Origin: Actinokineospora pegani | Lineage (GTDB): Bacteria; Actinomycetota; Actinomycetes; Mycobacteriales; Pseudonocardiaceae | Direction: 5' to 3' | Length of the DNA stretch: 64,000 nucleotides | Assembly: GCF_009745975.1 (NCBI RefSeq) | Contig: NZ_WHOL01000039.1 | Coordinates: 62,001-126,000 of the forward strand | Shown here: one piece after another, positions 10,975-21,921 of the stretch | Position numbering within the stretch: the first letter of the stretch is position 1 | Layout of the letters: every line of letters begins with the position of its first letter | Notes under the pieces: model-generated | Databases searched by the model: none | What the model was told of the DNA's origin: nothing | Seen by the model: the letters and a program-made list of their open reading frames with translations, nothing else | Translations under genes and position numbers: made by a program

Positions 10975-12573
10975 TCAGGGGCGGTGCATCCGCTCCCACA
11001 GCTCGGGCCACGGCGCCACCGGGGCCTTGAGCACGTAGACCGGCACGCCCTGGTTGGCCGTCTTGGCGGTCGTCTCCGGCAGCCGGATCGTGTCGACCCT
11101 GCGGATGTCGCCGAAGAACTGGCTGAGCCACTCCTCGGTGCCGCCCACGTAGATGACCTGCTGGGTCGTGTCCACGGGCCTGCCGGTGAACCAGTAGCCG
11201 CGCTCGGGGCCGTAGGCCTGCGGCAGCCCGCGCTGGCGGCCGTAGTAGTCCAGGGCGCTGGCCTGCCAGTAGCTGTCGCCCATGACCACGGTGTCCGCCC
11301 GCGACGGCAGGCTGCGGTAGACGTCGGCGGCGGTCTCGGCGACCGCGGGCCACCCCAGGCTGCCGCTGGCCTGGAAGTCGACCAGGTCGACCCCGGTGAA
11401 CCCGTCGACCGGGCGCACCGGCAGCGTCAGGTACACCGCGACCGGCACCGACAGCGCGAACACCGGCCACGACGGCACCCACCGCCACCACGCCGCGGTC
11501 CGGCCCGCCTCGATCCGCAGCGCCGAGGCCGCGAACAGGATCGGGTACATGCCCGCCACGTAGTAGTAGCGGTTGGCGAACACCAGGACGATCACCGTCA
11601 CGACCGCGACGGCCCAGCCCAGGAACCGGTACGGCCGCAGCTCCGGCGCCCGGAACAGCGTGTAGAGCCCGTGGCAGAGCAGGAAGGCGCCGATGGGCAG
11701 GCCCGCCATGGCGACCGCCAGCGGGATCGTGCCGAGCGTGCCGCCCAGCAGGCGGGCGTTCTGCTCCTTGATGACCTCCTGCATCAGCAGGTAGGGCCAG
11801 TCGTTGTCCATCTGCCACAGCAGCGTCGGCAGGGTGACCACGACGGTGATCACGCCGCCCACCCACAGCGCCGGGCGGCGCAGCAGGTCGCGCGGGCCCG
11901 CGACCAGCACGCCCACGATGATCCCGACCCAGAGGAACGCGATGAGGAACTTGCCCTGCATCGCCACCGCCGTGGCCAGCCCGGCGCCCACCAGCAGCCA
12001 GTCCGAGCGGTCGCGCACCCAGCGCACCACCAGCCAGGTCACCAGCACCCACAGGAACGGGTCGACGGTCGAGGTGGCCAGCACGTGCCCGGAGGCCAGG
12101 ATCTGCCAGGCCAGCGCGTACGCGCCCGCGGTGATGACCTGCGCCTTGCGCCCGCCGCCGAACTCGCGGGCGATCAGCGCGCTGACCACGACGCCCGCCG
12201 AGGTCAGCAGCAGCGGGATGATCCGCAGCGCGAACCACGAGCCGGGGAACAGCGCGTCCATCGATTTGGCCAGCCACGGCAGCAGCCACGGGTTGTCCGC
12301 GTAGCCCCACGCCCACTGGTGCTTGCCGGTGGCCAGGAAGTACAGCTCGTCGCCGAAGTAGCCGAATTTGCCCGCGACGGCGAGCAGCACCAGGCCGACA
12401 GCGGCGGCGATGGCGTAGACGGGCAGGCGGGCGAACTCCGGCGGTCCCGTCGGCTCGGGATCCCCCTCGTCGACCACCGCCGCCGCGCTCGCGCGCTCGT
12501 CGTCCACGTCGTCTTGGTCAGCGAAATCGGCTGCGAAATCACTGCCAAGATCTCCGCTTCCGCTGTCGGCCAT
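10975..12573 (-). CDS. GT39/ArnT-like membrane glycosyltransferase
   Basis: 532-residue polytopic transferase of the dolichyl/polyprenyl-phosphate-sugar family (PMT_2, GT39/GT83-like). After an acidic 45-residue head comes a first helix and the family motif GYFGDELYFLATGKHQW with the catalytic Asp75-Glu76, followed by WGYADNPWLLPWLA. About eleven helices follow, then a C-terminal extracytoplasmic domain from residue about 400 (ADTVVMGDSYWQASALDYYG). Such enzymes move a sugar from a polyprenyl phosphate donor to protein or lipid outside the membrane. It is the last gene of the synthase operon, 4 bp after the acyl-AMP ligase, so its acceptor may be the product lipid or the secreted esterase (inference). 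Confidence 0.85.
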   Translation of the reverse strand: MADSGSGDLGSDFAADFADQDDVDDERASAAAVVDEGDPEPTGPPEFARLPVYAIAAAVGLVLLAVAGKFGYFGDELYFLATGKHQWAWGYADNPWLLPWLAKSMDALFPGSWFALRIIPLLLTSAGVVVSALIAREFGGGRKAQVITAGAYALAWQILASGHVLATSTVDPFLWVLVTWLVVRWVRDRSDWLLVGAGLATAVAMQGKFLIAFLWVGIIVGVLVAGPRDLLRRPALWVGGVITVVVTLPTLLWQMDNDWPYLLMQEVIKEQNARLLGGTLGTIPLAVAMAGLPIGAFLLCHGLYTLFRAPELRPYRFLGWAVAVVTVIVLVFANRYYYVAGMYPILFAASALRIEAGRTAAWWRWVPSWPVFALSVPVAVYLTLPVRPVDGFTGVDLVDFQASGSLGWPAVAETAADVYRSLPSRADTVVMGDSYWQASALDYYGRQRGLPQAYGPERGYWFTGRPVDTTQQVIYVGGTEEWLSQFFGDIRRVDTIRLPETTAKTANQGVPVYVLKAPVAPWPELWERMHRP

Positions 12574-12577
12574 GTGC

Positions 12578-21400: not shown

Positions 21401-21921
21401 AAGTACTCCGCGTCGAACGCGGACACGTCGTCGAGGTAGCCGCCCGCCCGCGACAGCCCGTGCTCGTCGGCGTCGTCGGCGAACTGCGCCCAGCGGCCGG
21501 GGGGCACCTCGCCGATGGCGTCCTCGCCGCGGGTCAGCAGCGACCAGAACCGCTCGGCCGACGGCGCCCCCGGCAGCCTGCACGCCAGGCCGACCACCGC
21601 GATCGGCGCGCCCGGGTCGACCGGGCCGGACTCGGCGCGGGCGGCCGCGCGGCGCGCGCCCTCGGCCAGGGTGCGGGCCAGGTCCGCGATCGTCGGCGCG
21701 GTCCAGACCAGGGTGCTGGGCTGCGCCTCGCCCAGCTCCTCGCTGATCTTGGCGGCGAGCATCGTCGCCGAACGGGACGAGACCCCGAAGTCGCGCAGCG
21801 GCCGGTCGAACTCGGACTCGGTGACGTCCCGCTCGATCAGCGCCGAGAGCCACTGACCCAACCAGGTCCGCCACTGCTCCTCGGTGCGGGGGGCCTGCGG
21901 GGTGCTGGACTGCGGTGACAT
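15415..21921 (-). CDS. Pks13-like modular polyketide synthase with DH-like and KR domains
   Basis: 2168 residues. Order: N-terminal ACP (about 15-90, Ppant Ser49 in GVSSRSA), KS (104-525; Cys270 in DTACSSS, His in EAHGTGT and NLGHLEG), AT (625-905; Ser714 in GHSMGE, specificity loop GAGHS rather than the HAFH or YASH types), DH-like (983-1180; His1015 in [10 protein letters not shown]), KR (1450-1650; GGLGGLG, Tyr1601), ACP (about 1724-1800; Ser1758 in GLDSLM), a second carrier-like domain (about 1815-1890) with GGDN in place of GGDS, and TE (about 1897-2165; Ser1972 in GWSFGG, Asp1999, His2137). The leading ACP with FadD32-type ligase and the C-terminal TE match the Pks13 plan, ACP-KS-AT-ACP-TE, with DH-KR inserted. 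It would condense two fatty chains and reduce the beta-keto group. First gene of the operon. Confidence 0.93.

Follow-up and report, generated by a model that had tools for sequence, protein, structure and literature searches.

Gene content of the locus

The 64,000-nucleotide stretch of Actinokineospora pegani analyzed here (the window; C39:62001-126000 of genome G000, 6.4 Mb in 128 contigs) carries on its minus strand a four-gene operon for a Pks13-like reducing polyketide synthase (PKS), an exported esterase resembling antigen 85 (Ag85), a fatty acyl-AMP ligase (FAAL) and a membrane glycosyltransferase of GT39 type (Table 1). Mycolic acids are the waxy lipids of the tuberculosis bacillus; the carrier of this operon is a soil bacterium. 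An earlier reading of the letters without database searches (the sequence-only reading) had proposed this gene set, which is borne out by the reading frames and Pfam: all four frames are open, with intergenic gaps of 8, 24 and 4 nt. That reading also had the synthase open with an acyl carrier protein (ACP) and end in a thioesterase (TE). Pfam agrees, with matches to three PP-binding stretches, ketosynthase (KS), acyltransferase (AT), PKS_DH_N/PS-DH, ketoreductase (KR) and Thioesterase, and we add a third, serine-less ACP-like domain before the TE. The motifs of KS, AT, ACP1, ACP2, KR and TE are intact, and we read those of AT, KR and the dehydratase (DH)-like domain by their customary meanings, the AT motif often marking the choice of extender. 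Both reductive domains predicted inside the synthase were found, the KR with its motifs intact, whereas the DH-like domain has lost motif residues, looks degenerate and is probably idle. Condensation and ketoreduction in one chain, as previously suggested, would fit the intact KR motifs.

Table 1 Genes of the operon and domains of the synthase, in window positions
Feature	Position	Strand	Evidence
Pks13-like reducing synthase, ACP1-KS-AT-DH(degenerate)-KR-ACP2-pseudoACP3-TE, 2168 aa	15415..21921	-	Pfam/NCBIfam, motifs, KS tree, ACP3 profile
ACP1, N-terminal, SSR attachment motif (type of FAAL-loaded synthases)	21652..21885	-	Motif alignment
KS domain	20350..21606	-	Pfam, tree, Cys/His/His motifs in sequence
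AT domain, motifs GHSMG and GAGH	19096..20046	-	Pfam, alignment
DH-like domain with the first motif preserved but Tyr-to-Ser and Asp-to-Glu changes in the second and third	18208..18975	-	Pfam, alignment
KR domain, Ser/Tyr/Asn motif intact	17026..17562	-	Pfam, alignment
ACP2, DSL motif	16540..16734	-	Pfam, alignment
ACP3-like domain, GGDN, without attachment serine	16267..16479	-	Alignment, profile
TE domain, GWSFGG, Asp, His	15448..16203	-	Pfam, alignment
Ag85-like exported esterase, putative mycolyltransferase-type acyltransferase, 335 aa from ATG	14399..15406	-	Pfam, PDB, tree, AlphaFold model
FadD32-like FAAL, 598 aa	12578..14374	-	Pfam, NCBIfam, PDB sequence matches
GT39-like (PMT_2, GT-C) membrane glycosyltransferase with DE motif, 532 aa	10975..12573	-	Pfam

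Relationship of the synthase to Pks13

Among NCBIfam models, the synthase matched Pks13 best (1328 bits), with PKS_plus_SDR a close runner-up (1252). The KS, for which the sequence-only reading had foreseen a phylogeny, does not fall in an unrelated clade: in a 90-row tree, a 58-row clade (support 100/99) holds all 20 Pks13 rows, 36 rows of the window synthase's family, the row of one further locus (L140, see below) and that of a mycobacterial synthase (L156) to which this analysis gave the label "PpsA-like". The 20 Pks13 rows group together as a separate clade (100/100) whose sister is L140 (100/98), and the synthase of the window is placed just outside Pks13. The nesting of Pks13 among reducing synthases received KS support of 95/86 and 92/91, and 98 in a quick concatenated tree.

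Motifs of the AT and ACP domains were compared across the same groups. GAGH occurs in 17 of the 26 rows of the window's branch (window included), next to VAGH (4), AAGH (2), AAAH (2) and GAAH (1), and in 11 of the 20 Pks13 rows, which otherwise read GASH (8) or GSSH (1). A second branch of nine rows (L066, L068-L071, L073, L075, L076 and L079) has VASH, VAAH and VAGH twice each, and YASH, AAAH and APAH once each. GA[GS]H, a marker devised in this analysis, is thus carried by the window AT and 19/20 Pks13 rows, and by 0/33 rows of other ATs (of which three are repeat copies of a single AT). The SSR motif of ACP1 is common to the window synthase, most Pks13 rows and the PpsA-like row, and therefore marks FAAL loading, not Pks13 alone. 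At the aligned ACP3 site, the attachment serine is absent in 53/53 rows (20 Pks13 and 33 others; L073, L074 and L078 were dropped before these counts), and an ACP3 profile built from 32 family rows matched 21/21 Pks13/L140 proteins, with best i-E values of 1.7e-8 to 5.8e-18. The counterpart in Pks13, an ACP3 without DSL motif, is named in the portion available of a Pks13 cryo-EM paper, which gives its function as unknown (PMC9900942).

Compared with the mycobacterial and corynebacterial Pks13/FadD32/AccD4 locus, the window operon shares ACP1, KS, an AT with GAGH/GASH, ACP2, the serine-less ACP3, the TE, a FAAL partner, the KS clade and an Ag85-type acyltransferase in or near the locus, while an AccD partner is found only in a paralog and in relatives of the window operon. 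It differs in its gene order (PKS-Ag85-FAAL-GT39, no AccD), in scores below the Pks13 and FadD32 cut-offs, and in the DH and KR carried in chain, whereas mycobacteria use a separate reductase (PMC2568869, in part). The mycobacterial PpsA-like synthase (L156/L211) likewise has an N-terminal ACP with SSR, a FAAL upstream and a KS in the same clade, but its AT motif is VAPH. PpsA is not known to have a TE and is part of a multi-enzyme line.

Partner ligase and candidate extender carboxylase

The best NCBIfam models for the FAAL were PRK12476 (573) and FadD32 (539), FadD32 is among its best PDB sequence matches, and the best matches in both collections are FAALs, not acyl-CoA ligases. The sequence-only reading had noted that no accD lies nearby, which holds at the window locus but not for the C64 paralog and several relatives, where an AccD is encoded. 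Among PDB sequences, the C64 AccD scored 824 bits with MccB, 770-773 with PccB, 677-683 with AccD5 and 530 with the chain labelled D4 of a mycobacterial complex. In a 71-row tree, 15 operon AccDs form one clade with MccB and the AccD4s (100/98), apart from PccB/AccD5 (99/95); L138, which had no AccD row long enough, is outside the AccD counts.

Two AccD columns are tied to chain-length specificity in the part available of PMC5187497. In these, the operon AccDs have Gly (12), Ala (2) or Ser (1), and Ala (15/15), and the AccD4 rows Gly (13), Ser (4) or Ala (2), and Ala (19/19); the Phe of short-chain carboxylases is found in 7/7 PccB/AccD5 rows. Since the operon AccDs belong to the AccD4/MccB clade and lack this Phe, they point to an alkylmalonyl-CoA, hence to an alpha-alkyl branch. 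For the window synthase, a carboxylase acting in trans would be required, and the C64 operon encodes a candidate. Stambomycin MccB, the nearest PDB relative of the C64 AccD, has both specificity residues in common with it but feeds a modular macrolide synthase (PMC5187497, in part).

As the KS tree, the AccD tree, the exact AT motif and the serine-less ACP3 all agree, a chance look-alike of Pks13 is ruled out. So is strict identity with Pks13, by the domain order (DH and KR between AT and ACP2), the NCBIfam score and the KS clade.

Esterase, glycosyltransferase and possible export genes

The esterase has an N-terminus that by eye resembles a signal peptide, keeps a Ser/acid/His triad (the acid being Asp in C64) and a THSWPYW motif of the HSWxYW type, and has C. 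glutamicum PS1 as best PDB sequence match (E 5e-46). Two more distant esterases of the same genome were included for comparison: L209 lacks THSWPYW, and the alignment of L210 does not cover the motif. The AlphaFold model (mean pLDDT 79.5) has an Ag85 fold, with 6sx4 and Ag85C as best Foldseek matches; all 18 top-ranked Foldseek PDB matches belong to the Ag85 family as mycolyl- or corynomycolyltransferases (22-30% identity), with plain esterases close behind. The likeness to antigen 85 and the corynomycolyltransferases PS1 and Cmt1 thus covers fold, triad, THSWPYW and the signal-peptide-like start, whereas identity is low and the window esterase lies outside a 28-row clade (99/92) of Ag85-type rows from mycolate loci. 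In this unrooted tree, from which L125 was left out, a long branch within the family side carries the generic esterases L209 and L210.

The glycosyltransferase has a PMT_2 domain (Pfam, E 5.8e-14), is 78% and 64% identical to its counterparts in L009 and L052, respectively, and found no meaningful relative among PDB sequences. MMPL was matched in all 23 genomes searched (among the matches listed), so its presence does not discriminate. By coordinates, the FAAL has an MMPL gene close by in at least four loci of the second branch (G009, G010, G016 and G027), which hints at lipid export.

Distribution across the family

In Actinokineospora bangkokensis (L009), the nearest named relative, the same four genes occur in the same order at 71-83% identity, and the layout PKS-Ag85-FAAL-GT39 without AccD recurs in L009 and L052. 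These relatives suggest that the host belongs to the Pseudonocardiaceae. The proposal of the sequence-only reading that the host stands outside the classical mycolic-acid group agrees with this placement: in the parts of the two sources available, mycolic acids are a synapomorphy of Corynebacteriales (PMC6113628) and Pseudonocardiales are described as without them (PMC6194230). The window genome holds three Pks13-like synthases with terminal TE, the C64 paralog being ordered FAAL-PKS-AccD-Ag85 and the C99 paralog FAAL-PKS, with no Ag85 gene within its slice.

FAAL relatives (E <= 1e-100) were found in 19/60 family genomes at 40 places, 39 of which were examined in slices of 9.5-38 kb (G047:C28 was left out). 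A family KS/AT synthase stands beside the FAAL in 27/39, and within the slices 22 of these 27 have an Ag85-like gene and nine an AccD, counts that depend on 20-kb slices and BLAST thresholds and that score as absent an Ag85 gene just past the slice (perhaps L065). FAAL and Ag85-like genes are thus kept beside the synthase, and with the placement of the KS this means that the refuting condition named in the sequence-only reading did not hold. Among the remaining loci, the FAAL of L084 and L086 lies beside a KS of another kind (not counted), and the other ten are without such a KS. For the second branch, an Ag85-like gene lies in the slice at seven of the nine loci; judged by coordinates, L066 and at least three more have an MMPL gene close by. 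Beyond the 60-genome sample, the order FAAL-PKS-AccD-Ag85 was seen at four Amycolatopsis loci and in A. fastidiosa, and FAAL-PKS on two Streptomyces contigs that are truncated at their ends. A locus of the same genus, L051 (G045:C154), encodes a FAAL 84% identical to that of the window; PKS, Ag85 and GT39 genes were not found within ~9 kb of it.

Probable loss of the reductive domains

A KR was matched in 34/36 family rows. Its Tyr is lost in L061, and both Tyr and Asn are lost in the C99 paralog (L019+L020), where the DH is also degenerate and the reductive loop is in decay. In L052, the catalytic His of the DH is gone as well. The domain search found no DH or KR match at L063, L064 and L140. 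With DH and KR absent or damaged in several rows, loss or damage of the reductive segment appears to have happened repeatedly. PpsA also has a KR. Given a KR in nearly the whole family and in the PpsA-like outgroup, it is simpler to suppose that the Pks13 line lost its reductive domains, and this holds even with Pks13 as sister to all reducing synthases. We tentatively suggest, at somewhat less than an even chance, that a reducing FAAL-PKS-AccD-Ag85 operon, which Pseudonocardiaceae have retained, was the ancestor of the mycobacterial locus, through loss of DH and KR, and that its carriers make an undescribed mycolate-like lipid placed extracellularly by Ag85-type enzymes.

Among these loci, L063 and L064 (both Pseudonocardiaceae) have the plain Pks13 layout with a divergent Ag85-like gene nearby. 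L140 (G133:C1:124000-143900) comes from a genome of mycolate family f8 that gave no above-cut-off Pks13 match, and has the order FAAL-PKS-AccD-Ag85. Its KS, AccD and Ag85 rows adjoin the mycolate set, as does its FAAL in an unrooted tree, and L140 is a possible living intermediate.

Proposed route and alternatives

We hold, with moderate confidence, that the operon represents a branch of the mycolic-acid condensation system that is reducing and lies outside the mycobacteria, and that it makes a mycolate-like acid. The genes present, their homology and conservation, the motifs and the tree positions are observed, and from these we infer a route whose substrates and chain lengths, acceptor, export and step order are all putative. 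The FAAL would activate a fatty acid as acyl-AMP and load it on ACP1, ACP2 would receive an alkylmalonyl (alpha-carboxyacyl) unit from the AT, and the KS would join both chains in one condensation. The in-chain KR would then reduce the beta-keto group, with the DH probably idle, and the mycolate-like acyl chain (alpha-alkyl, beta-hydroxy) would leave through the TE, perhaps by transfer to a sugar. Outside the membrane the Ag85-like enzyme may transfer the chain to the final sugar or glycolipid acceptor, and GT39 may add a sugar from a polyprenyl-phosphate donor. Most likely, the product is a mycolate-like acid with an alpha branch and a beta-hydroxyl, which would be handed to a sugar outside the cell.

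Several observations weigh against this reading. At 1328 bits, the synthase does not reach the cut-off of the Pks13 equivalog NF040607 (2100 bits), nor does the FAAL, at 539 bits, reach that of FadD32 (975 bits); against PDB sequences, the whole synthase scored as high with mycocerosic acid synthase (907 bits) as with Pks13 (901). The FAAL tree is unrooted, has the FadD26-like L211 on the family side and does not show FadD32 as nearest relative, and a topology in which Pks13 branches outside every reducing synthase survived an AU test (p 0.077). L052, with the gene layout of the window, has VAGH in its AT; as VAGH and AAAH occur in both branches, which GAGH does not, the AT motif separates them less cleanly than exact GAGH suggests. 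All three DH motifs look intact in 11/15 AccD-type loci (the others being L058, L062, L065 and L126), whose products may therefore be unsaturated, and the window operon has no AccD, so that its extender could be methylmalonyl. Three paralogs in a single genome and a patchy spread (FAAL relatives in 19/60) are more suggestive of specialised metabolism than of an essential envelope lipid. Finally, an Emb-type arabinosyltransferase had no match in the window genome or in G045, which makes arabinogalactan mycolylation as in mycobacteria unlikely there. Arabinogalactan as acceptor is thus doubted for the window genome; Emb is present in 16 of the 23 genomes searched, and 8/14 operon carriers do have it.

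The absence of AccD, the patchy spread and the presence of a glycosyltransferase gene would also suit a secreted glycolipid antibiotic of the glucolipsin, cycloviracin or fattiviracin kind, an alternative we regard as unlikely though deserving of attention. Here, a 2-methyl-3-hydroxy long-chain acid built with a methylmalonyl extender would be glycosylated by GT39, and the Ag85-like enzyme would dimerize it or esterify it to the glucose 6-OH. According to the available portion of PMC4365757, glucolipsin-type compounds are acylglucose dimers, glucolipsin has a 2-methyl and a 3-hydroxyl group with an ester via glucose C6, and cycloviracin is made by Kibdelosporangium albatum. In a coculture of Actinokineospora and Rhodococcus, and in neither strain alone, a mass match was annotated as glucolipsin-A (PMC7918646, in part), but it is an annotation only. 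In relatives, however, synthases of this kind come with a long-acyl-type carboxylase, and the window AT reads GAGH, not YASH, the methylmalonyl-type motif (a motif-based, weak argument). Among the literature matches listed, no title concerned genes for glucolipsin-type compounds, so that the link to this cluster is one of structure alone.

An iterative synthase, or an active DH that yields an unsaturated acid, would instead give a lipid polyketide nearer to the PpsA or mycocerosate type than to mycolates. We consider this improbable: DH and KR are both present, mycocerosic acid synthase is by a small margin the top PDB match, and the PpsA-like KS shares the 58-row clade and the ACP1 motif, but the window DH has its Tyr changed to Ser and its Asp to Glu, L052 is without the catalytic His, and the ACP3-TE end together with the AccD partners of relatives points to a single Pks13-like condensation. 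Least probable is a decaying operon without product, to which the degenerate DH, the loss of the KR Tyr and Asn in C99 and the closest FAAL in G045 (L051), without PKS or Ag85 in its 20-kb slice, might point, against four open frames, intact KS, AT, ACP1, ACP2, KR and TE motifs, and a gene set kept in A. bangkokensis (71-83% identity) and L052.

Possible implications for the origin of mycolic acids

On the preferred reading of a reducing, mycolate-like branch, the core condensation set and an enzyme of the Ag85 family, by the tree not an ortholog, are present in an outgroup, with ketoreduction that would occur in cis. The origin of mycolic acids thereby becomes testable, and if the ancestry tentatively suggested above holds, mycolic-acid synthesis did not originate from nothing within Corynebacteriales. 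For Pks13, FadD32, AccD4 and Ag85, all of which are under study as drug targets, the operon also supplies natural points of comparison. In the closest of the papers found, PMC6194230, a gene matrix is said to show Ag85 genes as exclusive to mycolate-positive species, and the mycobacterial cluster is named as Rv3799c-Rv3804c in PMC2625445. Within the open-access literature, we found no description of this operon in the titles and abstract starts among the matches listed, and no paper on Pks13 and FadD32 with Pseudonocardiaceae.

Neighboring genes

Upstream of the operon lies a SelO gene (23127-25388), placed likewise in A. bangkokensis, which indicates a conserved neighborhood. Elsewhere, the window encodes a 1761-aa frame without Pfam match followed by a DUF5682/CoxE-like VWA protein (27750-37622), a penicillin-amidase-family protein with an F5/8 type C domain (54092-57307), and a PknG-like kinase with rubredoxin and TPR parts (59158-62157).

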